In this document: in pieces, positions 5,088-38,199 of the stretch
Layout of the letters: each line of letters begins with the position of its first letter
Numbering within the stretch: the stretch's first letter is position 1
Assembly (NCBI RefSeq): GCF_015155755.1
Contig: NZ_VWPI01000082.1
Span: 1-64,000, forward strand
Direction: 5' to 3'
Source: Komagataeibacter sp. FXV3
GTDB taxonomy: Bacteria; Pseudomonadota; Alphaproteobacteria; Acetobacterales; Acetobacteraceae
Length of the DNA: 64,000 bases
Position numbers and translations under genes: made by a program
Notes under the pieces: model-generated
What the model saw: only the letters and a program-made list of their open reading frames with translations
Databases searched by the model: none
Told to the model about the DNA's origin: nothing

Positions 5088-5140
5088 AAAACCCCGGCAG
5101 CCCTTACGCCATATCATGCAGCGTTATCAGGCCTGCCGGG
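5087..5140 (-). terminator. Terminator-like hairpin for the dehydrogenase operon
   Basis: Inverted arms CCCGGCAG (5093-5100) and CTGCCGGG (5133-5140) lie just past the cytochrome c stop codon on the minus strand, followed on that strand by TTTTC. The loop is long (32 nt). It probably ends the three-gene dehydrogenase transcript together with repeat copy A. Confidence 0.5.
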
Positions 5141-5153
5141 ATTTCGTATCCTG

Positions 5154-6536
5154 TTACGGCGTCTTGGGAAGCTGCTTGCGCATCTTTTCGACCTGGTCCG
5201 GTGTCACCCCATGGTCGCCGCTGCCGAACGTGGCGGTCACGTAATTGACCAGGGCCGCGACCTCGGTATTGCTCAGCCGCTGCACATCGGAACCATGGTC
5301 AAAGCCGGGCATGTAGGCATGCAGGCCGCCCGCCGTCCGGTCCACACCGTTCAGGACCGTCATGATCAGGTCATCTGGATGTGCGGACCCCACAACCGAA
5401 TTATGGAACAGCGACGGCGCGTAATGGTCACTGGTGCCCGCGCCGTTACCCCCATGACAGGCCGCACAGTTCGCATCATAAATATGCGGGCCGGTCATTT
5501 CATCAAGCTTGTCGATCCGGGTCAGTTCGCCCGAACGGATATCCGGCACGTCAAGCGCCTGCCCGAATGCTTCACGTGGGCCATGCTCGGCCTCATCTTC
5601 CTTGGCCGGGACCTGAAGGATGTAGGCAGCAAGGGCATGCATGTCATCATCGGTCAGGTGGCTGGTGCTGTGTTCAACCGCCTCGCCCATCGGTCCCGCG
5701 GCCTGGCTCAGACCGGCGACATGACCGGTCTTGAGATAGGCGACCAGGTCATCTTCACTCCAGTTGCCGATGCCGCTTGTCTTGCTTGAGGTAATGTTGG
5801 GTGCATACCAGCCCAGAAGGGGCGCACCGGCAAGGTAGCTGTCTTCCTTCTCGCTCAACATCATGTTGCGTGGCGTATGGCAGGTTCCGCAATGTTCAAG
5901 GGCGTTGGCCAGATACTTGCCACGGCGCATCTTGTCATACGTGGCGGAATCCCCGGTTTCAGGCGCGACACTGCCCGCGACAAGGTTCCACACCGCCATG
6001 GTGATACGCAAGTTGGCGGGGAAGTTCAGTTCCGTTACCGGCGGCGTTACGGCCACCGGCTTCACCCCATGCATGAACCAGGCATACATGGCCTTCACGT
6101 CATCATCCGTCATGCCGGAATAGGATACATACGGCATTGCGGGATAAAGGCGGCTGCCATCACGGCGCAGGCCATGGCGCACGGCCTTTTCGAAATCCTC
6201 TTCCGTATATTTCCCGATGCCATGATCAGGGTCCGGCGTGATGTTGGTCGAAACGACGTCACCCATGGGCGTGGTGATGCGCAGCCCCCCGGCAAAGGGC
6301 TTGCCCCCCGGCGCGGTATGACAGGCAACACAGTCACCGGCCGTCGCGATATATTCGCCACGCGCCATAAGATCCGCTGCAGGGGCGGCTGCCGGGGTCG
6401 CCGGGGGTGCCGCCGATGTTGCAGCCGGCGGGGGCGCAGCAGGATCATCCGCCCGCGCAGGCGTTGCAGACAGCGAAGCAAGGGCCGTGCCCGTGACCAG
6501 AACCGACCACAGGATCTTGCGTTTAACGTCAGGCAT
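5154..6536 (-). CDS. Triheme cytochrome c subunit of membrane-bound FAD dehydrogenase
   Basis: A product of 460 residues with a signal peptide (VLVTGTALASLSATPARA) and three CXXCH heme sites: CVACH at 69-73, CGTCH near 216 and CAACH near 360. This is the architecture of the cytochrome subunit of gluconate 2-dehydrogenase, sorbitol dehydrogenase and fructose dehydrogenase of acetic acid bacteria, which passes electrons from the flavoprotein to ubiquinone at the outer face of the cytoplasmic membrane. Its start overlaps the end of the flavoprotein gene by 8 bp, so the two are translationally coupled. An Ala/Pro-rich linker separates the signal peptide from the first heme domain. Confidence 0.92.
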   Translation of the reverse strand: MPDVKRKILWSVLVTGTALASLSATPARADDPAAPPPAATSAAPPATPAAAPAADLMARGEYIATAGDCVACHTAPGGKPFAGGLRITTPMGDVVSTNITPDPDHGIGKYTEEDFEKAVRHGLRRDGSRLYPAMPYVSYSGMTDDDVKAMYAWFMHGVKPVAVTPPVTELNFPANLRITMAVWNLVAGSVAPETGDSATYDKMRRGKYLANALEHCGTCHTPRNMMLSEKEDSYLAGAPLLGWYAPNITSSKTSGIGNWSEDDLVAYLKTGHVAGLSQAAGPMGEAVEHSTSHLTDDDMHALAAYILQVPAKEDEAEHGPREAFGQALDVPDIRSGELTRIDKLDEMTGPHIYDANCAACHGGNGAGTSDHYAPSLFHNSVVGSAHPDDLIMTVLNGVDRTAGGLHAYMPGFDHGSDVQRLSNTEVAALVNYVTATFGSGDHGVTPDQVEKMRKQLPKTP

Positions 6537-19855: not shown

Positions 19856-19915
19856 TGTACCCGCCATCCCATCGGGATGGTGGGATGTGACTGCCCTGTT
19901 TCCGGAATTTTTCCC

Positions 19916-21784
19916 ATGTTCAATGCCTCTCGCACGCGGGACGGCCTGACACGTCGCCGTTTCGTCACGGGTATGGGGGCGGGTGGGCTGCTTGCCGCCC
20001 TGCCCGCTTCCGCCACCCCCGTCACACCGGGCATGGTCCCTGCCGCATCCAGTGCGACATGGAACCTGCGCGTCGGCCGCAGGCGTATCGAAATCGACCG
20101 CAAGGTCCTGCACGCCCCCTGTATCGGGGGGGATGTACCCGGCCCCATCCTGCGCTGGCGGGAGGGAGACAATGTAACCCTGAACGTCACCAATACGCTG
20201 CGGGATGAGGATACCTCCATCCACTGGCATGGCATCCGCCTGCCTGCCAGCATGGATGGCGTGCCGGGACTGAGCTTTACCGGCATCCCGCCCGGTGAGA
20301 CCTTTACCTACCGCTTTCCCGTCCGGCAGAGCGGAACCTACTGGTACCACAGCCATTCAGGCATGCAGGAAGCACAGGGGCTGTACGGCGCCATCGTCAT
20401 CGACCCGCGCCGTCCCGATCCGAATGCATGCGCGCGGGATTATGTCATCGTGCTGTCCGAATGGACCGACGTGTCACCCATGGACATGATCAGCAACCTC
20501 AAGATGCAGGATGATTACTACGTCTTCCGCCAGCGCACGCTGGCGTCCCTGCCGCGTGAGGCCCGTGCGGGGGGTGGGGTCGGTGCGGCGCTGAAGGACC
20601 GGCTGCAATGGTCGCGCATGCGCATGGCCGCAACGGATATTTCCGATGTCACGGGCATTATCTACACCTACCTGTTGAATGGCCACGCACCCGACATGAA
20701 CTGGAGCGGCCTGTTCCGCCCAGGAGAGCGGGTGCGGCTGCGCTTTGTCAACGCTGCCTCCATGACGTTTTTCGACATCCGCATACCCGGTCTGGAAATG
20801 CTGGTGGTGCAGGCGGATGGCAATGATGTCGAACCCGTGCCGGTAGATGAATTCCGGATCGGCGTGGCCGAAACCTATGACGTGATCGTCCGCCCGCGCG
20901 ACAGCCGGGCCTATACGATCTTTGCCCAGAGCGAGGACCGCACCGGTTATGCCCGTGGCACGCTAGCCCCGCAGCCCGGCATGGCCGGTCCCATTCCCCC
21001 CATGGACCCGCGTCCGGTACGCACCATGATCGACATGGGAATGGGCGACATGAAAACGGGCGAAGACATGAAGGGCATGAACATGTCCGGCATGACGAAA
21101 AAAAACGCCCCAATGGACGGCATGGACATGCCCGACATGGACCATGGGGACATGGGACATATGGACATGGACCACATGGACCACATGGACCACATGGACC
21201 ACATGGACCACATGGACCACATGGACCACATGGACCATGCCATGCCCGCCGCGCCGGTCATGGAAGTGGATGATCCGGGTCCGCCCCCCATCAATGTCGA
21301 AAACCAGAATGTCGCGAAAATGCCGGTGGACCGTCTGGGCAGCCCCGGTGACGGGCTGGAACATAATGGCCGCCGCGTGCTGAATTACCGGCAGCTACGC
21401 GCCACCCGTCCCGGCATCGACCCCCGCCCGCCATCGCGTGAGATCATCCTGCACCTGACCGGCAACATGGAACGCTACATATGGGGGTTCAATGGCCGGA
21501 AGTTCTCTGAATCCGGTCCGATCCGCCTGAAGCTGGGCGAACGGGTGCGCTTTACGCTCATAAACGACACGATGATGGAACATCCCGTTCACCTGCATGG
21601 CATGTGGAGCGAACTGGAAAACGGTCAGGGTGACTACCGCCCGTACAAACACACCATCATCTCTCAACCGGGATCCCGGTTGAGCTACCTTGTCACGGTC
21701 GATGCGCCGGGCATGTGGGCCTATCACTGTCATCTGATGCTGCATATGGAACTGGGCATGTTCCGCACGGTGATCGTGGCATGA
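19916..21784 (+). CDS. Copper-resistance multicopper oxidase (CopA/PcoA type)
   Basis: 622 residues from the ATG at 19916. A Tat signal ([20 protein letters not shown]) directs the folded, copper-loaded enzyme to the periplasm. Copper-binding motifs are HWHG and HSH in the first cupredoxin domain and HPVHLHGMW and [12 protein letters not shown] in the last. Between them is a Met/Asp/His-rich insert with eight consecutive MDH tripeptides (DNA 21167-21238), like the Met-rich loops that gather Cu(I). It oxidises Cu(I) to less toxic Cu(II). The start at 19877 is possible but would bury the Tat motif. Its stop overlaps the copB start by 4 bp. Confidence 0.93.
21167..21238 (+). repeat. Tandem 9-bp repeat encoding (Met-Asp-His)8
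   Basis: Eight consecutive 9-bp units ATGGACCAC (the last is ATGGACCAT), in frame in the multicopper oxidase gene. Units are identical at the DNA level, which points to recent slippage expansion. Copy number would change only the length of the metal-binding loop since the unit is three codons. Confidence 0.95.
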
Positions 21785-23668: not shown

Positions 23669-25351
23669 TTATTTACTGAAAAGATGGCCGATGCGATCCC
23701 ATACATACTTCGCCATTATTTCATGCCCGGCCTGATTGGGATGCGTCGTATCGGGATCCCATGTTTCATGGTCAAGCACGTTGGCAAGGGGCTGCCCGGC
23801 GGCAAAAGGGTCGATGGTGATGTCAGCGCCGATGGCACCCTTCGTTATGGCATCATGAACGGCAGCACGGGGGGAACCTCCGGTCTGGGCCTCGTCAATG
23901 ATGGCGACGGTATAACCCGCCGCCTTCAGGCGACTGACAATCTGCGTCAGGTTATGCACCGTGTCGGCAGCGGGAATATGGTAGGCAGGCAGGTGATCAT
24001 TATAGCCGCCAAAGACAACGGCCACCTTGCGCGCGGCGCCCCGGGCCACGGTCTCGGCAGCGGGCAGCATGTCGAGCATCTGCCGCGTCGTCGCCCCTGA
24101 TACCGCGAAATCATAACTCTGGTAACGCGCGAAGCGCTGCATGAGATACGGCCAGTTACGGCCATCATGCACGCGAAAACCTTCGGTGCGGCTGTCACCG
24201 ATGGCGACAAAAACGTCACGCAACTGCGGCATGTAATCCCCTACTGCTGCAGCAGACGCGGCAAAGGCCTGTGTCTCCCCCGCCGCCGGGGCGTGGTCGG
24301 CTATGACAATCCCGGTCCATTGCCCTGTATTGCGCCCCTGCACGAACCATGATCCGCCATCGGCATTGTAGCCGATATACCCGCCCGACAGCGTACCGCC
24401 GGGCAGCATGCCCGGCAGGGTGACGTGCGCATTGCCCGCCTGCAGCGTGTAGCCACCAGGACCTGCGGCCACGCCAGACGCCGCGGGCGAACTGGTAATG
24501 ACCATGTCCGTGCGCAGGTCGGGGCTGCGCGTGTCGGCAACATGGACAAACCCGTCAAGGGTATAGCTGCCCATGAAGGCCTTGAATTCTTTCCCGCTGC
24601 CCGCCTGCCCCAGCAGGACCGGCACGGGCACGGCCGCATTACCCGAATTGGACGAGGCATAGGTCCCCGTGGTCCCGAAGAAGAAGCCATCGGCCGCAAC
24701 CTTCAGCCCGTCTGGCAGCACGAAGCCGCCAGAACCGTTTTCCTCACCCCATGACAGGGTATCGATCCCCCCGACCCTGACCGCGCCGATATGGACGGCA
24801 TGGCGGTCTGGCGTTGCCGTAATGTGGTTGCCATGCCCGGACTGGTCATAAACCCGCACCACATTGGCGAACGTGCCGGGATCGCGGGCGGATAGCGCGC
24901 GTTGCAGGGCTGCGGTATCCAGTCGGCCATCGCCACCAATGGCCAGCGTGATGGTCACCATCCGGCCTGCCGACATCGTCTCGATATCAAGGGCAGGCCC
25001 GGTATAGCCACTGACCAGCCGCATCGGCCCACCGGCAAAGACGGTGTGGGAACCGAATGTATCGCCCGGCAGGCGGACCGCAACATTTTCCCACCGGGCA
25101 TCACCCGGCGCTACCGACACCGCGCGCCATACCCGGCCTGATGCCTGCCACAGGTCCCCTGCGGCATAGCCCCGGCGGCTGTCATCATCACGTCGGGGCG
25201 CGCGATCCAGCCCGGTGCCCGCATGGTCGGCTGCGGGGATACACACCGTATCTCCACCCGCCAGCCCACATCCCGCCGCCTGCGCCTGTGCCAGAAGCGA
25301 TGGCGCGGCAATGGCCGCAAGGAGGGCTGCAACCTGTCTGCGCGTTTTCAT
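23669..25351 (-). CDS. Large secreted SGNH hydrolase with arabinofuranosidase-like N-terminal domain, downstream of bcsC
   Basis: A product of 560 residues with a signal peptide (1-26). Residues about 110-350 contain RLVSGYTGPALDIE, LDTAALQRAL and VVRVYDQSGHGNHI, which resemble the catalytic/lectin-like beta-sandwich of AbfB-type arabinofuranosidases (YTGPAV..., WYDQSGNG). Residues about 378-560 form an SGNH esterase: Ser387 in GDSR, Gly419, Asn451 in GGYND, and Asp534/His537 in DTTHP. So it probably deacylates a polysaccharide outside the cytoplasm. It is 62 bp downstream of bcsC on the same strand, which suggests a fifth cotranscribed gene acting on cellulose or another exopolysaccharide. 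I know no established gene name. Confidence 0.8.
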   Translation of the reverse strand: MKTRRQVAALLAAIAAPSLLAQAQAAGCGLAGGDTVCIPAADHAGTGLDRAPRRDDDSRRGYAAGDLWQASGRVWRAVSVAPGDARWENVAVRLPGDTFGSHTVFAGGPMRLVSGYTGPALDIETMSAGRMVTITLAIGGDGRLDTAALQRALSARDPGTFANVVRVYDQSGHGNHITATPDRHAVHIGAVRVGGIDTLSWGEENGSGGFVLPDGLKVAADGFFFGTTGTYASSNSGNAAVPVPVLLGQAGSGKEFKAFMGSYTLDGFVHVADTRSPDLRTDMVITSSPAASGVAAGPGGYTLQAGNAHVTLPGMLPGGTLSGGYIGYNADGGSWFVQGRNTGQWTGIVIADHAPAAGETQAFAASAAAVGDYMPQLRDVFVAIGDSRTEGFRVHDGRNWPYLMQRFARYQSYDFAVSGATTRQMLDMLPAAETVARGAARKVAVVFGGYNDHLPAYHIPAADTVHNLTQIVSRLKAAGYTVAIIDEAQTGGSPRAAVHDAITKGAIGADITIDPFAAGQPLANVLDHETWDPDTTHPNQAGHEIMAKYVWDRIGHLFSK

Positions 25352-25413
25352 CTCATACTGTTCCCGAAAGGTGATGGGACCGTACAGGTGCCCGGCATTG
25401 AAGGATAATGGCG

Positions 25414-28400
25414 TTACTGGCCATCAAGGGTGTAGTGCGCCATCCACATGCCGCTGGTCTCCGACCAGCTGCCCGCGCGGCTGTAACCGCCTTCCAGCCC
25501 CACGCGCAGCCGGTGGTCCACCTGATAGACAAGCCGCCCGCGCACGTTGCCCGCAAGGCCGCTTGCCCCCCCGTCACCATAATAGCTTGGCGGATTTTCA
25601 TCGCCCTTTGCCTGCAACGCATTGCTGGTCGGGAAATAGGGCGCACTATCGCTGTGATAATACTGGTATCCCGCTTCCCCACGCAGGAACCACGTCCAGC
25701 GCCTGTCATGTCCCGACCATTCGACCGGCACCATGGCACCGTAATACTGCTGGGGCGAGAAGTATCCACCCTGCCCCCAGGTAAAGAAGTAGGCATTGCG
25801 CTTATACCCGAAATACATAAGGTCAAGGCCGACACGCAGCCACTGCCGGTCATGCCACTGCCATACGGTGGCGCTGCCGCCCGCACCGGCCTCGGTCTCG
25901 GTATTGCCAATGACGTTGGTCCCGCTGAGATAGGCGAAACCGCCGCCTGCATACGCATTCCACCCCGGCGCGGACCATTCCAGCGCGCCATGGCCGAACA
26001 GGCGCGTCACCCCGCCCCACAGCTTGCCCGTGCCCGGATCGCGTTCCCCCGCATAGGACAGTTCACTATCCGTCACCATGCGCCGTCCGCCACTTATGCG
26101 CAGGCCAAGGTTACGGGTCAGCCGCGGGGCGAATTCCAGCCCGCCCACCACATTGGTGATGGGGAAGCCAAGCGGGGAAGACCCCACATCGGCCGAGAAC
26201 CAGTGGTTGACGTAGTTCAGGCTCAGCCCCACGCCCTGCGTGTAGTAATGATGATAGCCCCACGGCTGCGCGCCATTGACCGCGACCGTCCCGAACTGGT
26301 GGGCGGAATAGGCGTTATTCAGCGGATCCCCCGTGAACAGCAGTGTTGGCGTCACGGAAAAGGACAGCCGGTGTTCCCATGATTCAAACGGCAGGGTGGC
26401 GGTGATGGGAATGGCGAATTCCGTCAGCTGTCCCAGCCCCGCAACCCCCGTACGGCTGCGCACGAAGGTATTGGCGTCGAACTGCGGCGAAATGGAATCA
26501 CGCAGGTAGACGATCTGCCGGTCCATCGCCTCGGGGCTGTCATCCTCGGGGATGTAATGGTAGCTCGCCGGCAGGGTCGCGCCATGCAGGTCAAGGTATT
26601 CGCTGTCGATATACGGCCAGCGGTAATCGGGCAGGAAGCTTTCATGCCCGCCGCATTCGCCTTCCCCATCAAGGCTGCACTGGGCATGCCGGGCATGTTC
26701 CACATCCACCAGCTGCGCGCGCGAATTGCCCTCGATCCGTTCAATGTCGGAACGCACTTCCCAACTCATCGGACCATCGGGGTCTTCATGGGCCAGTTGT
26801 GTGGCATAGCCCTTTGCCTGCGCCAGCTGGTGGGCGCCACCGGCGTCACGCGCGGCGGCGGCCAGCGCATAAATATTGTTGGGCTTCAGCCGCAATGCAA
26901 TCTCGTCCTCCTCCAGCGCACGCGCAGCCATGTTCCGGGTCTGGTACACACGCCCCATGGCCAGATGGGCCTCGGCGGAATCCGGGTGGCCGCGCAGCAC
27001 GGGAGCCAGCACCTGTGCCGCCTGCGCTGTCTGACCATAACGGTCGAAATTATCAGCGGTCATGACCGCAAGGCCAATGGCGATCTGGTCGCGCGCACGC
27101 ATCTGCTCGAACGTGATATCGGCGGGATGCGCCTTTGCCATTTTGTCAAAGGCATCAAGGCAACGCGTCGTGTCAAAGGACGAACGCATGCGCAGGTACA
27201 TCCCCGCATAGGCCAGCATCTGGGCGGCATGCGGCGGCTGAGTCAGGCTTTCCTCACGCGCCAGCGCCTGGGCCGCATCCTGTGGCGCATGCCGCGCCAG
27301 CAGGGCGGCGGCAATGCGCATGCCGCGCTCACCCGTCGGGTCAGGCCGGTCAGCCAGCGCCACAAGGGCGGCATTGTCCGCGGCAGGCGGATGGTTGAGT
27401 TCGGCTATGCGCCGGTCCAGCGCCAGCAGTTCGGCCACGCTGTCCATGCCCGGCGTGCGGCCGGTTCTGGGCAGGCGTTCCAGCAGCGCGCTGGCGGCCA
27501 CCATGTCATGGCGGCCCATGGCATAGATGATACCTGCCTGCAGCGCCTCGGCCGACGCGTTGCGCGGCGTGGTCATGTCATCCATCAGGGCCTGTGCCGC
27601 CACATGGTCACCCGTGTCGTCAAGCGCATGCGCCAGCTTGAGCCGTACCCACGGGTCACCGGGTTCGAGTGCGTGCGCGCGACGCAGCAGGGCGATGCGG
27701 CTGTCACTGTCAGTTGCCCGGTCAGCCTGTGCGGACAGCGCGGCAACCGCCAGCCGCAGCGCCAGCACCGGATTCAGCGGGTCAAGGCGGGCAATGATCG
27801 CATCCACTTCCGTGCCGTCACCCGTCTGCACTTCCAGCATGCCAAGGTTGAACAGCGCCTCGGCATTGCGTGGCGCGCGGCTTACGACCTCGCGGTACAG
27901 CCGTTCGGCCTCGGCCATGTTCCCCTGCCTGCGCTCAAGCAGCGCCTGCAGCGACAGCACCGTCAGCGTATTGCCCGGCCGGCGGCCCAGGGTCGCAAGG
28001 TCGGTGCGCGCCGCGTCATAATCCCCGGTATTGATGGCATGCACGATGCGCGCCACCAGCGGATCCATGCCCGTGCCGCCAGATTCCAGCGCCTTCAGCG
28101 CCGCGCGCCAGTGCGGGGCGGTTTCGGGGTCGGCCTGGATGGCCTGCATGAAATACTGCCGCGCCAGCACCTGTTGCTGGCGGGCCTGCGCCACCAGCCC
28201 CAGCCCACCCAGCGCATCGGGATCATGCGGGTTGAGGACCACGGCATGATGGAATGCCGCTGCCGCCGCATCAAGGTTGTGGCGCGCCAGCAACGCGTAA
28301 CCCTGCTGGTGGAAGTTCGCGGCATCAACGGCGTCCTGCGTTTCCTGCGCCTTTTTCAGGCGCACGGTGAACTCCGTATCATCGGGATGCAGGCCCAGCC

Positions 28401-29424
28401 ATTCATTATAAAGCGGAATGCTCTGCCCGGTCACCGGTTCCCACAGCAACGCATCACGCCATGCCGCGACCGCGTCATTGCGGATCTGGGCCGATACGTT
28501 GGATTTCGCAAGCATGCGCAGCCCGTTCAGACCTTCCTCCCGCGAAGTGACACGGTAGGTCAGGATACGGTCAAGGCACAGCCGTGCATCAATATCGCGC
28601 GGATTACGCGCCACCCATGCCGTAAGCTTGGTGCGGGCTTCCTGATAACCAAGGATGGTCGCCCCCAGCACGCGGTAATATTCCAGCGCAAGGTCGGGTG
28701 GCGGGTCGCCATTCTTGAACAGCGCCTTGTACTTGAACATCGCGGGCATCATCTTGCCCGATGCCGCCAGTGCGCGCGCTTCGGCCAGGGCCTTCGGGTC
28801 CACCGGTCCGGCCTGGATCTGCGCCTTCAGGTCGGCCACCAGGCCGGGCGCATCGCCCTTGCGCTGCAGGCGTTCCAGCGTGCGCGTGGCCTGGGCGGTG
28901 CTGCCCTCGGCCATCTGCAGCCGTCCCTGCAGGAACAGGGCTTCATTATTGTCCGGTTCAATGGACAGCGAGCGCTGGATCGTCTCATGCGCCTTGGACA
29001 GATTGTGCTGGCCCAGCCAGTAATACCCCTGGTTGAGCAGCAGTTCGAGCACCGCCGCCGCATGCGCAAGATGCGCGCTGTTCGCCACTACAGCGGATGT
29101 GGCCTGCGGGCTGGAAGCGGTGACAGGCTGCTGTGTGGGCGCAATCGCGGTCGTGTCCGCCGGATCTGCCGCCGGGGCGGCTACCGGTGCGGTGCTACCG
29201 CCCGCCACCGCCATACCCTGCGCTGCGGCATGGCCACCTGACAGGATAAGGCCCGCCATCACGGCGCAGGCCATGCGCAGGCCGCTTTCACGTAAGCATA
29301 GATGGCCCAGCATGTCACCGCGCACCATTACCCACGCAGCGGGCGCACGACGCCACGCCACGCCATCACGCAGATTACGCCCACGTGGTCGTGTCAGGTC
29401 ATGATTAATGGACACGAGACACAT
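25414..29424 (-). CDS. bcsC: Cellulose synthase operon protein C (type II operon), outer-membrane export channel
   Basis: About 1336 residues. A signal-like segment (ACAVMAGLILSGGHAAAQG) is followed by many TPR repeats (about 100-900; NLSKAHETIQRSLSIEPDNNEALFLQGRLQ is one unit), then the C-terminal BCSC beta-barrel ending in SGMWMAHYTLDGQ. The TPR part spans the periplasm and binds peptidoglycan or partner proteins, and the barrel exports the glucan. The start is uncertain: the ATG at 29424 overlaps the end of bcsY by 20 bp, but in-frame ATGs about 30-35 codons further on (MVRGD, MLGHL) sit closer to the hydrophobic segment. There is no bcsD-like gene. Confidence 0.92.
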   Translation of the reverse strand: MCLVSINHDLTRPRGRNLRDGVAWRRAPAAWVMVRGDMLGHLCLRESGLRMACAVMAGLILSGGHAAAQGMAVAGGSTAPVAAPAADPADTTAIAPTQQPVTASSPQATSAVVANSAHLAHAAAVLELLLNQGYYWLGQHNLSKAHETIQRSLSIEPDNNEALFLQGRLQMAEGSTAQATRTLERLQRKGDAPGLVADLKAQIQAGPVDPKALAEARALAASGKMMPAMFKYKALFKNGDPPPDLALEYYRVLGATILGYQEARTKLTAWVARNPRDIDARLCLDRILTYRVTSREEGLNGLRMLAKSNVSAQIRNDAVAAWRDALLWEPVTGQSIPLYNEWLGLHPDDTEFTVRLKKAQETQDAVDAANFHQQGYALLARHNLDAAAAAFHHAVVLNPHDPDALGGLGLVAQARQQQVLARQYFMQAIQADPETAPHWRAALKALESGGTGMDPLVARIVHAINTGDYDAARTDLATLGRRPGNTLTVLSLQALLERRQGNMAEAERLYREVVSRAPRNAEALFNLGMLEVQTGDGTEVDAIIARLDPLNPVLALRLAVAALSAQADRATDSDSRIALLRRAHALEPGDPWVRLKLAHALDDTGDHVAAQALMDDMTTPRNASAEALQAGIIYAMGRHDMVAASALLERLPRTGRTPGMDSVAELLALDRRIAELNHPPAADNAALVALADRPDPTGERGMRIAAALLARHAPQDAAQALAREESLTQPPHAAQMLAYAGMYLRMRSSFDTTRCLDAFDKMAKAHPADITFEQMRARDQIAIGLAVMTADNFDRYGQTAQAAQVLAPVLRGHPDSAEAHLAMGRVYQTRNMAARALEEDEIALRLKPNNIYALAAAARDAGGAHQLAQAKGYATQLAHEDPDGPMSWEVRSDIERIEGNSRAQLVDVEHARHAQCSLDGEGECGGHESFLPDYRWPYIDSEYLDLHGATLPASYHYIPEDDSPEAMDRQIVYLRDSISPQFDANTFVRSRTGVAGLGQLTEFAIPITATLPFESWEHRLSFSVTPTLLFTGDPLNNAYSAHQFGTVAVNGAQPWGYHHYYTQGVGLSLNYVNHWFSADVGSSPLGFPITNVVGGLEFAPRLTRNLGLRISGGRRMVTDSELSYAGERDPGTGKLWGGVTRLFGHGALEWSAPGWNAYAGGGFAYLSGTNVIGNTETEAGAGGSATVWQWHDRQWLRVGLDLMYFGYKRNAYFFTWGQGGYFSPQQYYGAMVPVEWSGHDRRWTWFLRGEAGYQYYHSDSAPYFPTSNALQAKGDENPPSYYGDGGASGLAGNVRGRLVYQVDHRLRVGLEGGYSRAGSWSETSGMWMAHYTLDGQ

Positions 29425-30565
29425 AGGAAATATAGGCGAGAATTGCCGCAAGCAGCAGGCAGCCACCCACCAGCAGGCCTGCGCCACGGTTGCGCGCGGC
29501 GATGCTGGCGCGGTCCTCATAATCAAGACCGGTCCGCTCGACAAAGACGTAGCTTAGCAGGCTGACCACCATGACCAGCGCCAGCACGCCCGCCATCATG
29601 GCCCCATGTACCTGGAAGAACAGCAGATAGTTCGCCACGACAATACCCGGCCAGTGCCACAGATAGACGGAATACGAAATCACCCCCAACGGTGAAAGCG
29701 GCACAAGACACCACTGCCCCACCTTCGTGTCAGGCAGCATGATGATGATCGCAACCGCGACACACGGGAACACCGTCATGTAGGACGGGCAGGCAAAACG
29801 CAGTGGATAGAACAGTCCCGATCCCACAATGACCGCAAGGGCTGCAGCATAGACAAGATTGGCAACCCCACGCGACAGCTGCGGGCGGGGAAACATCCAG
29901 ATCATCGTGCCAAGCGAAAACTGCCACAGCCGGTCGAAGATGTTGTAATAGGCCTGGCTATCGCCCTTGTACCACGCCAGCGCGCAATATGCCGCCGAAG
30001 CGGTGAAAATGGCCGACAGCACCAGCCTGCGGTGGTGCGTCAGCGGCATCAGCAGCGCCATGACGAAGATGATGGCGTAGAACTGCATTTCCAGCGACAG
30101 CGACCATGTATGCAGGAACGGGTAAGCGATGGCCTGTCCCTGGAAATACCCGACATGCCCCGACGCCCAGATATTGGACAGGTACACCAGCGCATACGCG
30201 CCGTTGAGCGCGATATCGGCACGATCGCTCTGCAATACCCACCACAGCATTCCTGCCGAGACCGCCGCGATCATGCACAGCAAGGCCGGCAGCAGGCGGT
30301 ACAGCCGGCGGCATACAAAGCGCACTGGCTGGAACGGGTGCTGCATGAGCGCCGAACGTCCCATGAAATAGCCCGAGATCACTACGAAAATATCGACGCC
30401 GATAAACCCGCCTTGCAACCACCCGGCATGGAACAGCACCACAAGGGCAATGGCCAGCCCACGCAGGCCGTCAATGTCGCGCCGACGGTTCTTGGGAAAG
30501 AAATCGTTTTCCAGAATGGTGCGCCAGCGACTGGGCGCGGGCTGTAGGGGGGTAAGTTGCAGCAT
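29405..30565 (-). CDS. bcsY: BcsY, membrane acyltransferase of the type II cellulose operon
   Basis: A product of 386 residues of the acyltransferase-3 (OafA-like) family with about ten membrane segments. Family marks: RDIDGLRGLAIALVVLFHAG with the catalytic His, GGFIGVDIFVVISGYF, and a late SYSVYLWHWPGI. BcsY is proposed to acylate cellulose. The ATG at 30565 has GGAAAAT upstream; the frame extends to an ATG at 30619. It overlaps bcsC by up to 20 bp, indicating coupled translation. Confidence 0.92.
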   Translation of the reverse strand: MLQLTPLQPAPSRWRTILENDFFPKNRRRDIDGLRGLAIALVVLFHAGWLQGGFIGVDIFVVISGYFMGRSALMQHPFQPVRFVCRRLYRLLPALLCMIAAVSAGMLWWVLQSDRADIALNGAYALVYLSNIWASGHVGYFQGQAIAYPFLHTWSLSLEMQFYAIIFVMALLMPLTHHRRLVLSAIFTASAAYCALAWYKGDSQAYYNIFDRLWQFSLGTMIWMFPRPQLSRGVANLVYAAALAVIVGSGLFYPLRFACPSYMTVFPCVAVAIIIMLPDTKVGQWCLVPLSPLGVISYSVYLWHWPGIVVANYLLFFQVHGAMMAGVLALVMVVSLLSYVFVERTGLDYEDRASIAARNRGAGLLVGGCLLLAAILAYISYVSRVH

Positions 30566-30648
30566 CAATATTTTCCACGGCTTGCGCCAGTCTCGGGCAA
30601 AGCGGCGGGCGCCCGGCATCCCGGGCCGCCCACCACATCAGGATGGGC

Positions 30649-31320
30649 TTACTGCGCGGCCGCCGGCGGCGCGTCCTTCAGCTTCTCAAGTTCGGGTAGC
30701 GTCGCCTGCACGATCGCATCGCCCCAGACCTTGTAGCTTTCGGGAGTGGCATGAATGCCGTCGATCGTGTTCACGCTGCCCTGCTTGAGCAGTGCCGTGC
30801 CGTCAACATACGTGCACGGTGCAACCTCCCCCTTGAGGAATGTCGCCATTTCCGTCGCACGCTGGTCGGTCTTGCCGTAACGCGGGCTGAACTGGCCCCA
30901 TGTCGGGCCGACCCAGATGCACGCCGTCTTGCCAATGGCGTAGGTCAGCGTCTTGACCTGTTCGTCCACCCAGTCCTTGGACACCGCGTTCTGGCCGTAC
31001 GCTGCCATCGTATCGCCCAGGATCACCATGACCACGTTGGGATGCCATTTCTCGATCAGCGAGTTGATCGGCGGCGGGGAGGCAGGCTTCATGTTGGGCG
31101 CGCCGATCGGTGCGTCCCCCACGCGTTCGGCGGCGCCACAGCCATTGTTGGGGTTGGGCACGACCCAGTCGGCGGCGGTGGATGAGCACACGCCGTACGT
31201 TACAACCTTCGCCCCCTGCTTGGTGAATTCATCGGGCAGAACCGACAGAAGCGAGTCCTTGAAGGTAACATGACTGTCGCCAATGATCAGCAGGGTCAGG
31301 CCTGCAAGAAGAGCATTCAT
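30649..31320 (-). CDS. bcsX: BcsX, SGNH-family hydrolase of the type II cellulose operon
   Basis: A product of 223 residues. A short hydrophobic N-terminus runs straight into the SGNH block I, LIIGDSHVTF with Ser16. The later IDGIHATPES supplies the Asp/His pair. GDxMAAYG probably occupies block III. It is likely an esterase or acyl-handling enzyme. With so short an N-terminus it may be either exported with an uncleaved anchor or cytoplasmic. GGAG lies upstream. It sits between bcsAB and bcsY, the order of Komagataeibacter bcsII operons, and its function has not been firmly established. Confidence 0.88.
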   Translation of the reverse strand: MNALLAGLTLLIIGDSHVTFKDSLLSVLPDEFTKQGAKVVTYGVCSSTAADWVVPNPNNGCGAAERVGDAPIGAPNMKPASPPPINSLIEKWHPNVVMVILGDTMAAYGQNAVSKDWVDEQVKTLTYAIGKTACIWVGPTWGQFSPRYGKTDQRATEMATFLKGEVAPCTYVDGTALLKQGSVNTIDGIHATPESYKVWGDAIVQATLPELEKLKDAPPAAAQ

Positions 31321-31459
31321 CTATTTCTTTCTCCATACCAGAATTATTTTGCCTGTATACCGGGCACACCCGCCCCTTACGGTATGCGCGGCTGGCTTCC
31401 CGCCGTCACGGTGAGAGCAGTCGACATCGCAGATGATGGGGAAGATTGTATATGACCTA

Positions 31460-34400
31460 TCACAAATCCCCCGTCAGGTCGTCATGCTCGATCCGCTTGC
31501 GCGACCAGCCACGCAGCCATGCCCACACCCCGAGGGCCGCAAGGCCCGCGCCAGCCAGACCGGTCAGGTAAAGCACGGTGGGGTGACGGCCCAGATACCA
31601 GTCAAGGCGCATCCACAGCGGCAGCGAGCCGACGGTATAAAGCGGTGCCGTGCGGTAGCTGGTGAACTGATCGCCATTCTTGAGCACAAGGTCACCCTGC
31701 AGCGCGGGCAGGTCCGTCTTGTTGCGCAGACTGAGTACCATGTCATGAATGCGTTCGGGCGTATCACCCATGAAGGCCACGACCGAGCGCTGGCTGTCAT
31801 AGGGCGACTGCGCGGCCAGCAGCACGCCCGCTTCCACGATGGGGGCATTCAGGTTGGCCGTCACCCCATCCTTCAGTCCCGTATGGTCACGGTCCTGAAA
31901 CAGGTACCAGATCCCCTGCAGCCCCGTGCGCTGGCCCACCGTGATATGCTGGTCGTGGATCACGTACGGCGAGCGGGCCAGCAGCCCGGTCGCCGCACCC
32001 AGCTGCGCCGCCGTGCCAAGCACGACAATATCCCCTTTTGGCGGAGCCTGTTCCACTTCATCCGCCTTCATGATCTCCACGCCCGCCGCCGGATACCACG
32101 TCGATGCGCCAAAGAAGCCCATGAGGTCGAGGAACGCGCCGGCCGTGCCCATATCGAGATGGGTGGGCAGGACAACGGTGGTTTCCGACAGGTCGGCCAT
32201 GCGCGAGAACGGGAAGGCCGCCTCGGCAAAGTAGGACAGGTTGGGCAGTTGGGCAAAATGGTGGCCGCGCCGGAAGTCCAGCGTGGAATCCGAATCCACG
32301 CTCATGCGGATATCGCCCGGCGTGCGGCGGCATGCACCACGGTCGATGGGACGGGCGTCAAAGTTGAACTGCAACTGGTTCTGCCCGAACAGAAGCCATG
32401 GCGGCAGCGCCGTGACATGACCAACCGCCCCTGCATGCTGGTTGACCAGGCGTTCGGACCATTTCTGCCACAGGCCCGGCGGGGAGAGCGTATAGCTCTG
32501 CAGGTAGTTATTGTTGACGCTGACATCGACGCGCGATGTCTCAAGGTCAACCACGGGGCCACCAGGCGCGCGGACCCACATGTTCATAAGGAACGGCCGC
32601 CCGCGCCATGTGTACAGATCAGGCGGCAGATGGAACGGCAGCGTCATGCCCGCGGGCGTGAAACCGCCGCCCTGCAGGTCCGCCGCCCCCACCAGTTCGC
32701 CAAAGCGTACGGGGCGGTCCGTCGGCACGAAGGCTGGCGCATCATAGGGATGGCGTGTCTCGAGATTGACATCACTGACCACTTTCGAGGCAACACCACC
32801 CAGCGTATCGGGCGAGAACACGACCGCGCGCGCCGCGGCTTCCACTTCCTGCGCGTTACGCCCCGTCACAACCAGCACCGTGCCCCAGCGGTCATTGGGA
32901 TTGACGATTTCCGCCACCATCGGCCCGGTGGGTCGTGCGCCCGTGGCATCGACAGCCAGGTTTTCGCCCACTTCCACCGCATTGCCCGAGGCCGGGATGG
33001 TGGTGGAGACAGGGAAGGACAGCTGCCGGAAATCGGCCACCTTGCCAAACCACGACGCGATCAGCCCTGCCGCCTTGAGCGCCCCCCTGTCCCCCATTGC
33101 GGGCAGCACGACAGGCACGCGCAGCGTTGAACGCAGGTTGGGATCGAAGAAGGGGGCGGGCAGGCGCGAAAGCTTGCGTTCTGGCGCAATGCGCACCGTT
33201 GTCAGCGTAATGCGTGACATGTCGGAAATACGCGCCCACAGGATCTCGTTGAACAGGTCGTTGCAGTCACGCCGGTATTCACCGGCAAAACGGAAATTGA
33301 GCTTGTTGTCGCCCGTGAAATACAGCGGGTCTATATCGAAGGTCAGTGGCCCGAACTGTGGATGCTGCGGATCCACCTTGATGGTGCCCACATACTGTTC
33401 GTTCATCGTGACCGTCACCGCACTCGCCTCGGGCAGCAGCGAGGGCGACAGCGCGCCCGACAGCGTCAACTGCGCATGCGTGACCACCCGGTTGGCCGGC
33501 ACGACCACGTCCAGGCCCTGCAGCGGGGAATACCCGCGCAGCGTCAGCGGGCCGGTCGTGGCGCCAAGGCTGCGGAACGAGATGGTGCGCGTCACCTCCG
33601 TATCGCTGATGCGCTCGGCGGCGAGGGGATCAATCGCCGGTGCCTCATCAGGGACATTACCGGTATTGCTGTCCCCGAACGGGGCTTCCGCCGTGACACC
33701 GGTCTGGTCCATGACGGGCGTCATGGCCGGGGGTGCCGCCTCCTGGGCCATGGCAACCGGCACCAGGGCCGTAAAAGCGACAAATAGCGCGGCAGATGCG
33801 GTAGCGCCATCACGAACGCTACGGGGAACAGGTTTCAGCACGAGGCTTTGTTTCTCCAGTTTTTCTTCCGCGGCGGGAAGGTCCTCCTCCCCCCCGTCCG
33901 ACATGGGACGCGGCGCCTCGGGCCCGCGCCGCTTCAGCAGGCCGCCAATGCTGCGGAACACCATCGCAAGGCTGTGCAGCGGGCGGTCGGGGGCGAAATC
34001 CGCCCAGTTGGCCCAGGCGTCATTGCGACCAAAGACCATGTTGACGATCTGCTGCTCATCATGCAGGTCGCGCCGGATCCACTGCAGGCGCAGCATGCCC
34101 TGCCCCACCCCGACCACCCGCGCGGGAACGTTGACATGGATCCCATCGCGCGCATTGTCGTAATGGACCGTGACCTCGGTCCCTTCCATTTCCGCCGTGA
34201 CCCATGCCCCATTCACGGCCAGACCGCCGAGCGAGATGTCATATGTATGCGCATCAAACCTGCGGCCCTGTGCATCGGTAACCGCAACGGGCAACCTGAC
34301 CGTGACGCGTGGCGCACTGCGTGTCTGCCGCGTTTCCCGTCCCACCGCGATCGACGCCAGGACGATGATCATGCTTATGACCACCCACACCGTGTTCAGC

Positions 34401-36013
34401 ACGAAGGACTGCAGCGCCAGCCGGTCATGAAACTGCCAGAAGATGCCAAATATCCCGCGCGCGAAAGCCACGAACAGCACCACGGCAAGGATGACGTTGG
34501 GATAGACCGCGTCCCAGTCGAAATAGCTGCGTGCAAGCAGCCCGCCCTTGTCCGTCACGTTAAACTTGCCCTTGTGCGGCTGCAGCAGGGTGACGATGGT
34601 GATGCGGATGAGGAACAGCGCGAGCGAGGTTTCGTAAATCTCGCTCCAGAAGGAATAGCGCCACCGTGACTCGATCCGCGACAGGGTCATGACCGAATGG
34701 AAGATGTGCGGAAGCGCATAGACACTGATGGCCAGGGGTGACGCCGCAATGATGTTCTGCCCCAGGAACAGGAAGGCCAGTGGCGACACCAGGAACGTCA
34801 CCCTGGGTATGGCAAACAGGAAATGCGACATGGCCGACAGGTAGCAAAGTCGCTGTTCCCACCGCAGGCCACCGCCCAGCAGGGGATTGTCCACCCGCAT
34901 GATCTGGATCATGCCGCGCGCCCAGCGTACGCGCTGGCCGATGTGCAGGATCAGCCGTTCGGTGGACAGGCCAGCCGCCAGCGGTTCGCGCAGATAGGCC
35001 GTCCCCCATCCCTTGCGCTGCATCTTCAGCGCGGTATGCGCGTCCTCGGTTACGGTTTCCGTGGCGAAGCCGCCAATGCCCATGACCGCTTCACGCCGGA
35101 TGATGGCACACGAACCGCAGAAGAATGTCGCATCCCAGAAATCGTTGCCGTCCTGCACCAGCCCATAGAACATGTTGCCTTCGGGCGGCACGTGCATCCC
35201 GCTGACCAGGTTCCGCTGGAACGGGTCCGGGGCATAGAAATGGTGCGGTGTCTGCAGCAGGGCAAGATTGGGGTCGGCCATCATCCAGCCGATGGTCCGC
35301 TTGAGAAACCCGCGCGTCGGCACGTGGTCGCAGTCGAAAATCACGGCGTAGGGGCTGTGCGTTACTTTCAGCGCGTGATTGAGATTGCCGGCCTTGGCAT
35401 GGTTGTTTTCGGAACGGATGATATAGCCCGCCCCCGCCGCAAGCGCGAAATCACGGAACGCCTTACGCCGTCCATCATCAAGGATGTAGACATTGAGCTT
35501 GTCCTCGGGCCAGTCGAGGTCAAGCGCGCCAAGCACCGTCGAGCGGACAAGGGAAAGCTCCTCGTTATAAGATGGAACAAACACATCCACGCTCGGCCAT
35601 AGTGCCGGATCGTCGGGTAACGGGTATTCCTTGCGGCGCAATGGCCATGCCATCTGGAAATAGCTCAGGCACAGCGTCACCAGGGCATAGGTTTCCGCCA
35701 GCAGCAGCAGTACGGCCAGCCCCGTCTGCAGCCAGTTGCCGAACTGCACCGTCGTGGTCAGCCGCCATACGATGTAACGCAGCGATACCAGCAGGGACAG
35801 CATCATGAGGAAAATGGTGATACCCCGCCCCGGCCGACGGTTGAGTATCAGCAGGACGGTAACGGTACCAATGGAAATGAAGCCCTGCATTGCAGGATCA
35901 ACCACCACCGATCCGACAAAAGCCATGATGACCACGCCCAGCACGACCGGTACCCAGACCGGAACACGGTCCAGTCCGGTACGTGCCAGCAGCCTGGCAA
36001 TTTTACCAGTCAT
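31460..36013 (-). CDS. bcsAB: Fused cellulose synthase BcsAB (type II), c-di-GMP responsive
   Basis: A product of 1517 residues. The BcsA part is an inner-membrane family-2 glycosyltransferase with DDG at 179-181, DCD at 227-229, TED at 322-324 and QRVRW at 360-364. A PilZ domain follows (RxTRQTR near 559-565; DISLGG at 592-597), which binds cyclic di-GMP. The BcsB part starts after a linker near residue 770 and ends in one membrane helix (YLTGLAGAGLAALGVWAWL). It makes beta-1,4-glucan from UDP-glucose and passes it to the periplasm. The A-B fusion is typical of Komagataeibacter; no cmcAx, ccpAx or bcsD is nearby, marking this as the second-type operon. Confidence 0.97.
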   Translation of the reverse strand: MTGKIARLLARTGLDRVPVWVPVVLGVVIMAFVGSVVVDPAMQGFISIGTVTVLLILNRRPGRGITIFLMMLSLLVSLRYIVWRLTTTVQFGNWLQTGLAVLLLLAETYALVTLCLSYFQMAWPLRRKEYPLPDDPALWPSVDVFVPSYNEELSLVRSTVLGALDLDWPEDKLNVYILDDGRRKAFRDFALAAGAGYIIRSENNHAKAGNLNHALKVTHSPYAVIFDCDHVPTRGFLKRTIGWMMADPNLALLQTPHHFYAPDPFQRNLVSGMHVPPEGNMFYGLVQDGNDFWDATFFCGSCAIIRREAVMGIGGFATETVTEDAHTALKMQRKGWGTAYLREPLAAGLSTERLILHIGQRVRWARGMIQIMRVDNPLLGGGLRWEQRLCYLSAMSHFLFAIPRVTFLVSPLAFLFLGQNIIAASPLAISVYALPHIFHSVMTLSRIESRWRYSFWSEIYETSLALFLIRITIVTLLQPHKGKFNVTDKGGLLARSYFDWDAVYPNVILAVVLFVAFARGIFGIFWQFHDRLALQSFVLNTVWVVISMIIVLASIAVGRETRQTRSAPRVTVRLPVAVTDAQGRRFDAHTYDISLGGLAVNGAWVTAEMEGTEVTVHYDNARDGIHVNVPARVVGVGQGMLRLQWIRRDLHDEQQIVNMVFGRNDAWANWADFAPDRPLHSLAMVFRSIGGLLKRRGPEAPRPMSDGGEEDLPAAEEKLEKQSLVLKPVPRSVRDGATASAALFVAFTALVPVAMAQEAAPPAMTPVMDQTGVTAEAPFGDSNTGNVPDEAPAIDPLAAERISDTEVTRTISFRSLGATTGPLTLRGYSPLQGLDVVVPANRVVTHAQLTLSGALSPSLLPEASAVTVTMNEQYVGTIKVDPQHPQFGPLTFDIDPLYFTGDNKLNFRFAGEYRRDCNDLFNEILWARISDMSRITLTTVRIAPERKLSRLPAPFFDPNLRSTLRVPVVLPAMGDRGALKAAGLIASWFGKVADFRQLSFPVSTTIPASGNAVEVGENLAVDATGARPTGPMVAEIVNPNDRWGTVLVVTGRNAQEVEAAARAVVFSPDTLGGVASKVVSDVNLETRHPYDAPAFVPTDRPVRFGELVGAADLQGGGFTPAGMTLPFHLPPDLYTWRGRPFLMNMWVRAPGGPVVDLETSRVDVSVNNNYLQSYTLSPPGLWQKWSERLVNQHAGAVGHVTALPPWLLFGQNQLQFNFDARPIDRGACRRTPGDIRMSVDSDSTLDFRRGHHFAQLPNLSYFAEAAFPFSRMADLSETTVVLPTHLDMGTAGAFLDLMGFFGASTWYPAAGVEIMKADEVEQAPPKGDIVVLGTAAQLGAATGLLARSPYVIHDQHITVGQRTGLQGIWYLFQDRDHTGLKDGVTANLNAPIVEAGVLLAAQSPYDSQRSVVAFMGDTPERIHDMVLSLRNKTDLPALQGDLVLKNGDQFTSYRTAPLYTVGSLPLWMRLDWYLGRHPTVLYLTGLAGAGLAALGVWAWLRGWSRKRIEHDDLTGDL

Positions 36014-36655
36014 GAACCCCGTCCTGTATGCATCGCCTGCTACGTCACTGCCTTAATAAATAAGAATATCTGGTATTTTTCCGCCCGCAGCCATGCGGTG
36101 GCGTCAATGGACTGGTACTGGCGTCATTTTAACCGGGACATGACCAGCCGTTTATGAAAAAAATACTCTGTATTTCTGATCCAGAAGAGAATCCTGGCGA
36201 CCCGACTCCCCTATCATGCAACACTACATTTACAATGCTGCCAGTTCGCTGCATGGGCTTATACCCGAACAATGCGAACGGTGTTAATTTTGCATTAACC
36301 TTCTGTCAAGAGAAAAACCAGAGATCAAAAAACATCATTTTCACCATACCCATGCACCGGACATGTCCGGACCATTGCCCTGAACATGGAAAATCTATTT
36401 ATATTTTTCCTTTAAAGGGAATGCTTATCTAGATTTTTGTTTCGTTATCAGTGTTATAGGTCAGGCACCCGTTCCCATCGCGCCCATCATGACGCACCTG
36501 GGACTGCTTGACGTCCCATGGATAGGAATTTATGTGAACACCGTTCATTACCATCAACATACAATGTTTACGGATGCCAGCATGAATGCCGACCGGACAG
36601 TCCCGATGCAGCATGCCCATTTTCCCATATGGGCCTGCATGCAAAAAGAACGGTC
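36014..36655. promoter_or_regulatory. Divergent intergenic region between bcsAB and TetR genes
   Basis: 642 bp with no convincing gene; a 92-codon frame at 36154-36432 has no start signal or family likeness. The region must hold the bcsII promoter. It contains a perfect 14-bp palindrome CCGGACATGTCCGG (36357-36370), a GTTAA-N7-TTAAC repeat near 36281 and a near-palindromic TTCCTTTAAAGGGAA (about 36407-36421). The 14-bp palindrome is a plausible TetR operator. Confidence 0.5.
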
Positions 36656-37318
36656 ATGAAAACCACGCCGCCTGTCATGCGCAACGGCAGTTACCACAAG
36701 GGACATGTTGCAGAGGACCTGCTGCGCACGGCCCGAAACCTGCTGGATCGGGAAACGGCGGAAAGCGTATCTGTACGGCGCCTGACGCGCGAAGTGGGCG
36801 TGACGCCCGCCAATTTCTATAATCACTTCAGCAGCATTCATGACCTGCTGTTGCAAATCGCCGCTGATTCATTCGTACAATGCACACGACAGCTACGCTA
36901 TTTTCAGCGCAATACCGTAACGCGCGCGGATGCGCTAAAGGCTGCGCTGGTGGAATATGCCAGCTTTGCCCAGCGCCACCCGCAGACATTCCGGATCATG
37001 TTCGGCTTCGTGCCCAACGCCATTTCCCACAAGACCTACCATAACGCCGCGATACAGGCATTCGCGGCATTGCTGGAGCTTGTATATGGCCAGGAAATGC
37101 TCCACCTCCATGACATTGAAGGCACCCGGAAACGCGCACGTATCGGATATGGCCTGTGTGCAATGGGTCATGGACTGGCGATGATGCTATCGGATGGCCA
37201 ACTGCTGTTTGGCAAGGAACCGGGTCAGGAACGCCGGAAAATGATCGAGGATATTGTCGATGCCTTCATTCACAACGAATTGCATGAAGCCCTGACCCGG
37301 CCAGCAGGGCTGACCTAA
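36656..37318 (+). CDS. TetR family regulator, divergent from bcsII operon
   Basis: A product of 220 residues. The N-terminal helix-turn-helix (HVAEDLLRTARNLL, SVRRLTREVGVTPANFYNHF) is of TetR type; the C-terminal half is a helical ligand domain with a HPQTFRIMFGF segment as in WHG-type TetR proteins. It is a clear paralogue of the next gene. Divergent placement next to bcsAB makes it a candidate regulator of cellulose synthesis, and alternatively it controls the transporter and receptor genes downstream. The ligand is unknown. Confidence 0.85.
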   Translation: MKTTPPVMRNGSYHKGHVAEDLLRTARNLLDRETAESVSVRRLTREVGVTPANFYNHFSSIHDLLLQIAADSFVQCTRQLRYFQRNTVTRADALKAALVEYASFAQRHPQTFRIMFGFVPNAISHKTYHNAAIQAFAALLELVYGQEMLHLHDIEGTRKRARIGYGLCAMGHGLAMMLSDGQLLFGKEPGQERRKMIEDIVDAFIHNELHEALTRPAGLT

Positions 37319-37539: not shown

Positions 37540-38199
37540 ATTTCGAGAGCCTACCATAAAGGAAACGTTGCCGAAGACTTGCGGATCGCCACCGTCAGGA
37601 TACTGGAAACCGAACGGCTGGAAGATCTGTCGGTGCGTCGTCTTACGCGGGAAGTCAGGGTGGCGCCAGCAAACTTCTATAACCATTATGGCAGCCTGAA
37701 CGATCTTCTGCTGGAAATTGCCGCGGATTATTTCGAGGTTTTCCGCGATCAGGCTGCCCATATCAGCCGCACGTCCGCAAACAGGACGGAAGCGCTGAAG
37801 CGGACCGTTTTCTACTTTGTGGACTTCGCGCGCTGCCATCCACAGCTCTATCGACTGATGTTTGGCTATATACCCGATGCCTATACCTATCCCCGGTACC
37901 GTCTGACGGCGGGCGCTGCATTCGAGGACCTTATGGAACTCATATACGGCTACAAGGTCTTTACCATCAGCGACGATTTCGGCCCCAACGACATGTCGGT
38001 ACTGGGAAGCAAGGTACAGATCGGCTATGGAATGTACGCCATGCTGTGCGGCCTGTCGAACCTGTTCGTTGCCAATGCCAGCGAAGGACCATTTGCGAAA
38101 ATCGGCGACCCGCGTGAAAGTATCGCCGCGTTCCTGAACGGCATTCTGGATGCTTTTATCAAGGGAGACCTGCCCAAGGTTCTGGAGGGCAAGCCCTGA
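37540..38199 (+). CDS. TetR family regulator, paralogue with damaged or ATT start
   Basis: About 219 residues, aligned with the upstream TetR (YHKGNVAEDLRIATVRIL, SVRRLTREVRVAPANFYNHY, CHPQLYRLMFGYIP). No ATG or GTG opens this frame before the conserved YHKG. Candidates are an ATT at 37540 with AAGGA at 37526-37530, or a TTG at 37579 that would cut into the first helix. In the neighbouring frame ATG at 37530 reads MTSHFES and hits a stop after nine codons; removing one C at 37550-37551 would join MTSHFES to YHKG. So it is either an ATT-initiated gene or a fresh single-base frameshift. Confidence 0.7.
   Translation: MSRAYHKGNVAEDLRIATVRILETERLEDLSVRRLTREVRVAPANFYNHYGSLNDLLLEIAADYFEVFRDQAAHISRTSANRTEALKRTVFYFVDFARCHPQLYRLMFGYIPDAYTYPRYRLTAGAAFEDLMELIYGYKVFTISDDFGPNDMSVLGSKVQIGYGMYAMLCGLSNLFVANASEGPFAKIGDPRESIAAFLNGILDAFIKGDLPKVLEGKP

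Follow-up and report, generated by a model that had tools for sequence, protein, structure and literature searches.

Komagataeibacter species are the main industrial source of bacterial cellulose. The subject here is a type II cellulose operon (bcsII) and the gene that closes it, bcsZ, in a 64,000-nucleotide stretch (the window) of Komagataeibacter sp. FXV3 (RefSeq assembly GCF_015155755.1, contig NZ_VWPI01000082.1, positions 1 to 64,000). The closest described system is that of K. xylinus E25. Szymczak et al. (2022; PMC9318390) found bcsZ directly after bcsII in this strain and in most type strains, and absent or broken in some species. The E25 protein was reported to possess a signal peptide, an SGNH domain with Ser403, Asp550, and His553 together with the oxyanion residues Gly435 and Asn467, and a lectin-like middle part; the hypothesis of an acylated cellulose was given in the same paper. 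An SGNH/GDSL hydrolase is also drawn in bcs operons in a later study (Adv. Sci. 2025; PMC12412545). A second relevant system is found in Pseudomonas fluorescens, where acetylated cellulose requires WssF (according to PMC9318390 and PMC10302187).

The window carries a bcsII cellulose operon in complete form, with the order bcsAB2-bcsX-bcsY-bcsC2-bcsZ; the species is a Komagataeibacter close to K. europaeus. A preliminary description of this DNA had recognized bcsAB, bcsX, bcsY, and bcsC in the type II order and a secreted SGNH gene 62 nt after bcsC. Open reading frames (ORFs), Pfam, and NCBIfam confirm the order, with the fused bcsAB followed by bcsX, bcsY, and bcsC on a single strand, and ORFs and Pfam confirm the SGNH gene on the same strand. 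This fifth gene is not new: the core of the finding is already known as bcsZ of bcsII, since Szymczak et al. described the gene, its residues, and the acylation hypothesis. A shift of 16 residues maps the published Ser403, Asp550, His553, Gly435, and Asn467 onto S387, D534, H537, G419, and N451 of the window protein. The name ORF569 of Umeda et al. (1999) may stand for the same gene. The present analysis adds a wider synteny, a GH54-like fold in BcsZ, a comparison of WssF-type proteins accompanied by AT3 or MBOAT acyltransferases, and conflicting signs on the location of BcsX. All five genes run in one direction on the minus strand, from 36013 to 23669:

31460..36013, minus strand: bcsAB2, fused cellulose synthase catalytic subunit and BcsB, 1517 aa (ORF; NCBIfam TIGR03030 CelA, 851 bits, and PRK11114 BcsB, 539 bits)
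30649..31320, minus strand: bcsX, 223-aa SGNH-fold protein, relative of WssF (ORF, alignment, fold matches, 17 divergent homologues)
29405..30619, minus strand: bcsY, 404-aa membrane acyltransferase of the AT3 (Acyl_transf_3) family (PF01757, E 6.8e-27)
25414..29313, minus strand: bcsC2, TPR and outer-membrane export protein, about 1299 aa (ORF; BCSC_C, E 8.1e-76)
25352..25413, minus strand: spacer between bcsC2 and bcsZ, 62 nt, with no promoter-like or terminator-like match
23669..25351, minus strand: bcsZ of the bcsII type (distinct from the GH8 enzyme called BcsZ in other operons), 560-aa secreted SGNH hydrolase (ORF; Lipase_GDSL_2, PF13472, E 1.3e-15)

The frames of all five genes are open in the window, bcsC2 is uninterrupted, and ratios of nonsynonymous to synonymous substitution rates (dN/dS) lie between 0.01 and 0.23 across the bcsII genes. 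For bcsC2, the longest ORF reaches a TTG at 29544 and overlaps bcsY; an ATG near 29313 is the likelier start. A consensus scan, which is weak for an alphaproteobacterium, detected neither a promoter nor a terminator in the gap between bcsC2 and bcsZ, which is at most suggestive of a single transcript for the five genes. The gene bcsD is not in this operon and is present elsewhere in the same genome, in the bcsI locus.

To place bcsZ in a wider context, genome contigs were scanned with BcsX, which retrieved 25 bcsII-like loci from Komagataeibacter, Novacetimonas, Gluconacetobacter, and Acetobacter that were then searched with the five proteins. The survey bore out the earlier suggestion that the fifth gene is part of bcsII, as in 20 further loci from four genera a full-length bcsZ comes directly after bcsC2, at distances of 6–75 nt and on the same strand. 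Among the other loci, K. diospyri (L026) retains only a remnant of bcsZ, one assembly of A. okinawensis (L047) has a disrupted copy, K. rhaeticus (L034) lacks the gene, and two contigs (L025 and L044) are too short to judge. Within the genus, bcsZ is essentially full-length in 16 of 19 genomes, broken in one, and missing from two; every copy that shares its contig with bcsX is on the same strand, 5–8 kb away. No intact copy unlinked to bcsII was found in these 19 genomes, so that the converse situation, an SGNH gene residing mostly away from bcsII, was seen neither there nor in the surveyed loci. Four Acetobacter genomes display the order bcsB, bcsX, bcsY, bcsC2, bcsZ, bcsA, which places bcsZ inside the cellulose gene cluster; this arrangement is absent from the 2022 paper (PMC9318390), which treated Komagataeibacter.

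The dN/dS of bcsZ against three relatives is 0.13–0.23, indicating purifying selection. More distant relatives (29–40% identity) occur in other Acetobacteraceae, one (L069) convergent to a bcs operon and the others (L070–L074) with no bcs gene within about 20 kb, and a BcsZ profile run against 349 genomes of the phylum retrieved, outside the family, only single-domain SGNH (TesA-like) proteins. Because bcsZ is linked to bcsII across four genera, chance linkage is unlikely, and the conserved synteny rules out bcsZ as a chance neighbor of bcsC2. Judged by that synteny, the placement of bcsZ in bcsII is supported. A separate observation concerns the near relative K. europaeus LMG 18890 (L035, 5314-10615), in which bcsAB2 is interrupted by an in-frame stop, bcsX has lost about 18 residues in frame, and bcsZ is intact; bcsII seems to be decaying in that strain while bcsZ is retained.

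BcsZ comprises a signal-like N-terminus, a GH54-like middle region (about residues 93-370), and a C-terminal SGNH domain (about residues 378-560), the last covered by a Pfam GDSL/SGNH match at residues 383-545. The C-terminal domain displays the Ser, Gly, Asn, and His blocks and the triad Asp of SGNH/GDSL hydrolases, and S387, G419, N451, D534, and H537 are invariant in 21 homologues from four genera; this invariance of catalytic and oxyanion residues points to a catalytic role. In an AlphaFold2 model built with the 21 homologues (mean predicted local distance difference test score, pLDDT, 73.9), the domain matches TesA-type and carbohydrate-esterase SGNH structures with Z scores of 17–20, CE3-like and xylan-esterase-like folds among them.

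The middle region, from residue 93 to about 370–397, matches in the same model the GH54 α-L-arabinofuranosidase 1wd3 (Z 23.5, root-mean-square deviation 2.9 Å, 269 aligned residues, 16% identity), which assigns it to the GH54 catalytic fold on a model of moderate confidence. At the sequence level the relationship is faint. Window BcsZ scores 18.1 bits against PF09206 (GH54), short of the cut-off of 25; 12 of the 21 homologues match this family weakly, below the cut-off; and a profile search of BcsZ against the PDB did not find 1wd3. A comparison by hhalign with a true GH54 protein (P0001) gives 93% over 65 columns. In a direct alignment, reliable over only about 65 columns and weak beyond the first 70 residues, the GH54 catalytic Glu and Asp are unmatched and the CC-pair segment of the true GH54 protein has no counterpart. 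Because the catalytic residues of GH54 could not be traced, binding is likelier than cleavage for the middle domain. A Pfam search detected no carbohydrate-binding module in residues 45-96.

BcsX has an SGNH-like fold of which it is an atypical member. The window protein has no Pfam match of its own, and its assignment comes from the fold (Z 13.7, model) and from weak matches of relatives. The Ser, Asp, and His of an SGNH/GDSL triad are present: S16, D187, and H190 are invariant in 17 divergent homologues, as are D103 and the cysteines C45, C61, C134, and C169. The oxyanion Asn of block III is missing, with G-D103-T104-M in place of G-x-N-D and T104 sometimes replaced by Ala, an atypical block also remarked on in PMC9318390. 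The nucleophile lies at about residue 16 with no recognizable signal peptide, because all homologues start just before the first β-strand. A longer frame with a missed N-terminal signal was considered and is ruled out by a stop one to two codons upstream in the window and in several relatives.

BcsY exceeds the curated cut-off of Acyl_transf_3 (94.8 bits against 31) and is an AT3 protein; its nearest NCBIfam model is SucT, at 101 bits far below the cut-off of that model. The earlier count of one acyltransferase and two SGNH-fold proteins is therefore correct, with BcsY identified as AT3, BcsX by fold, and BcsZ by Pfam and fold. A tblastn search of the window retrieved no MBOAT (WssH) or AlgX-like (WssI) gene, and the single AlgF-like (WssG) match, 26 residues at E 8e-4, falls within bcsX and does not amount to an AlgF-like gene. 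From a Wss-type acetylation operon the locus thus possesses the WssF-type protein and not the WssH, WssG, and WssI genes. The same genome encodes two MBOAT proteins on other contigs; a search of it for PF16822 (ALGX) gave no match, yet the controls were silent too, so this is no evidence of absence.

The neighborhoods of BcsX homologues are informative in this respect. In wss-type loci, homologues of 37–46% identity lie beside AlgF-, MBOAT-, and AlgX-type genes (L075, L076, L077, L080, L085, and L086) or beside MBOAT and AlgX-like genes (L083). A free-standing pair occurs at L078:9817-11727 (minus strand), where a BcsX homologue follows a lone AT3 acyltransferase gene by 24 nt and no cellulose synthase gene is recognized in 20 kb. 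By these comparisons, BcsX appears to be common to two different machines for acylation, one with the AT3 protein BcsY and the other of the AlgF/MBOAT/AlgX type. A second BcsX type, about 50–55% identical, follows bcsD in Acetobacter okinawensis and A. syzygii (L045–L047, about 1-7000), where it sits between bcsD and the GH8 gene of a bcsD-containing cellulose operon, and in a Gluconacetobacter genome of the same family (G123; L087, 1107-10403); no acyltransferase is recognized beside it in these loci. The preliminary description had also read the lack of bcsD and cmcAx as a sign of a noncrystalline product. This is weak evidence, given that Acetobacter and Gluconacetobacter operons that do contain bcsD also harbor close paralogues of bcsX.

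A working model starts from features that the data support directly, namely gene content, intact frames, SGNH catalytic residues, conserved synteny, purifying selection, and fold class. By the established functions of their families, BcsAB2 makes the glucan chain and BcsC2 exports it. BcsY probably takes acyl groups from acyl-CoA in the cytoplasm and carries them over the inner membrane. Its partner is probably BcsX, which would relay the acyl group or place it on the chain, a role suggested by the constant presence of an O-acyltransferase, of AT3 or MBOAT type, alongside BcsX. The action of BcsZ most likely comes at the end, beyond the inner membrane: the glucan would be bound by its GH54-like domain, while its TesA/CE3-like SGNH domain would remove or move acyl groups or help to hold the polymer. 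We put the chance that BcsY and BcsX acylate the BcsAB2 glucan and that secreted BcsZ acts last as a glucan-bound esterase or transferase slightly above even; the acyl chemistry, the direction of the SGNH reactions, and the place of action are what we infer. An add-and-remove cycle of acyl groups on the glucan, as proposed in the preliminary description, is plausible. A bolder version, possible but doubtful, sees in bcsII a second machine for cellulose O-acylation, built independently, in which BcsX was kept, MBOAT, AlgF, and AlgX were replaced by a single AT3 protein, and BcsZ, a catalytically dead GH54 domain joined to an SGNH esterase, edits the polymer after export.

Several observations weigh against the working model. 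Confidence in the BcsZ model is only moderate over its middle part, with pLDDT 39-83 beyond residue 190. BcsX, which is assigned to the periplasm, lacks a recognizable signal peptide in the 17 divergent homologues. Some species keep bcsII without bcsZ, both among the loci surveyed here and in PMC9318390, so bcsZ is not essential. In K. xylinus E25, where bcsC2 is split by an insertion sequence (IS), ethanol lowers expression of bcsZ and raises that of most other bcsII genes (PMC9318390), and these data point to a partly separate control of bcsZ. Finally, no acetyl was seen by Fourier-transform infrared spectroscopy (FTIR) of K. hansenii cellulose (PMC10106347) or by Raman spectroscopy of K. 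sucrofermentans pellicles (PMC12412545). Such pellicles are chiefly made by the main synthase and so do not decide on the BcsAB2 product, and K. hansenii, the source of the FTIR pellicles, is without bcsZ.

Two other readings concern BcsZ itself. Szymczak et al. (2022) proposed that it is mainly an adhesin whose lectin-like part anchors the bcsII polymer, or the cell, to crystalline cellulose, an activity that the SGNH domain would only tune. A lectin-like β-sandwich behind a signal peptide fits such a role (PMC9318390), as does the likelier binding function of the GH54-like domain, but the SGNH catalytic and oxyanion residues, invariant in all 21 homologues, point to a catalytic role, and we regard a chiefly adhesive function as unlikely. 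Alternatively, BcsZ could be a secreted esterase acting on carbohydrates in general, perhaps on foreign or plant polysaccharides, that stands merely beside bcsII with its own expression. Its distant relatives away from bcs genes in L070–L074, its opposite regulation in ethanol, and the CE3-like and xylan-esterase-like structure matches would all agree with this. The close homologues, however, all follow bcsC2 directly and in Acetobacter are enclosed by bcsC2 and bcsA, which makes a general esterase quite improbable.

The remaining readings address the acylation step. BcsX might be cytoplasmic and not act on the glucan; it could, for instance, be a thioesterase or handle the acyl donor, and in this way feed BcsY. 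A catalytic serine at about residue 16 without a signal peptide, a stop codon 1–12 codons upstream in many homologues, and the SignalP result for E25 BcsX (no signal peptide, though Phobius disagreed; PMC9318390) all speak for this location. Four cysteines invariant in 17 of 17 homologues, as expected of disulfides outside the cytoplasm, and the published Wss model, which puts WssF in the periplasm (PMC10302187), speak for the opposite one. The absent signal peptide and the cysteines are contradictory, and a cytoplasmic BcsX is a tentative possibility. It is also conceivable that bcsII has no acylated product in practice and is a decaying accessory synthase that changes only fibre packing. The acetyl-free FTIR and Raman spectra would then be expected, as would the bcsII genes broken in several species (bcsAB2 by a stop and bcsX by a deletion in K. 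europaeus, bcsZ in K. diospyri, and others reported in PMC9318390). Against such decay, the five frames are open in the window, dN/dS is low for all genes, and deletion of bcsY alone alters K. hansenii fibres (PMC10106347), so that we consider it improbable. The working model, with BcsZ acting last on the acylated glucan, is the one we retain.

Other features of the surroundings were noted in passing. On the plus strand, a pair of adjacent and similar TetR-like regulators (36518-37318 and 37579-38199) is divergent from bcsII; the first of them begins about 500 nt from bcsAB2. On the other side, a multicopper-oxidase-like protein (19877-21784, plus strand) carries a tandem Met-Asp-His repeat (MDHMDHMDH...; about 21100-21240) that is probably copper binding. 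Elsewhere in the genome, a fourth, weaker cellulose-synthase-like match (G000:C148:17942-19861, 344 bits) contains two in-frame stops; it may be another glycosyltransferase or an extra bcsA that is broken.

The operon matters for the material, since deletion of bcsY in K. hansenii lowers crystallinity and alters the fibres (PMC10106347). Should the bcsII product prove to be an acylated glucan that is attached to the cell and controls fibre packing, bcsX, bcsY, and bcsZ would be handles for tuning cellulose in living cells. To this the comparative data add three testable points: bcsZ as a putative old operon member, its GH54-like front half, and BcsX as a component apparently common to two acylation machines.

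Among known systems, the wss operon of P. fluorescens SBW25 (WssF–WssI) shares with the locus its cellulose synthase genes, a protein of the BcsX/WssF type located after bcsC, and an O-acyltransferase dedicated to the system, whereas wss employs AlgF-like, MBOAT, and AlgX/AlgJ-like proteins where bcsII has the AT3 protein BcsY and bcsZ. Alginate O-acetylation (AlgF, AlgI, AlgJ, and AlgX) follows the same general scheme, a membrane acyl carrier and periplasmic SGNH proteins acting on a nascent exopolysaccharide, but no Alg protein has a counterpart in the window, and BcsX and BcsZ are ordinary SGNH folds, not circularly permuted ones (PMC10302187). The parallel to alginate and Pseudomonas cellulose acetylation drawn in the preliminary description thus holds for BcsX as a WssF relative and fails for the MBOAT, AlgF, and AlgX-like genes, none of which is in the locus. 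The GH54 enzyme AkAbfB (PDB 1wd3) has the overall fold and the region of the YDQSG-G-N motif in common with the middle domain of BcsZ; it differs in about 16% identity, an unmatched CC-pair block, and untraced catalytic Glu and Asp, and BcsZ adds an SGNH domain. The closest system is bcsII with bcsZ of K. xylinus E25 (PMC9318390), which has the same five genes in the same order, the same SGNH residues at an offset of 16, the same domain layout, and the same acylation hypothesis. Two differences stand out: bcsC2 is uninterrupted in the window and split by an IS element in E25, and the middle domain of BcsZ, matched in the published work to lectins (thrombospondin N-domain, 163 residues, 3.2 Å), is here matched to GH54 over 269 residues at 2.9 Å.

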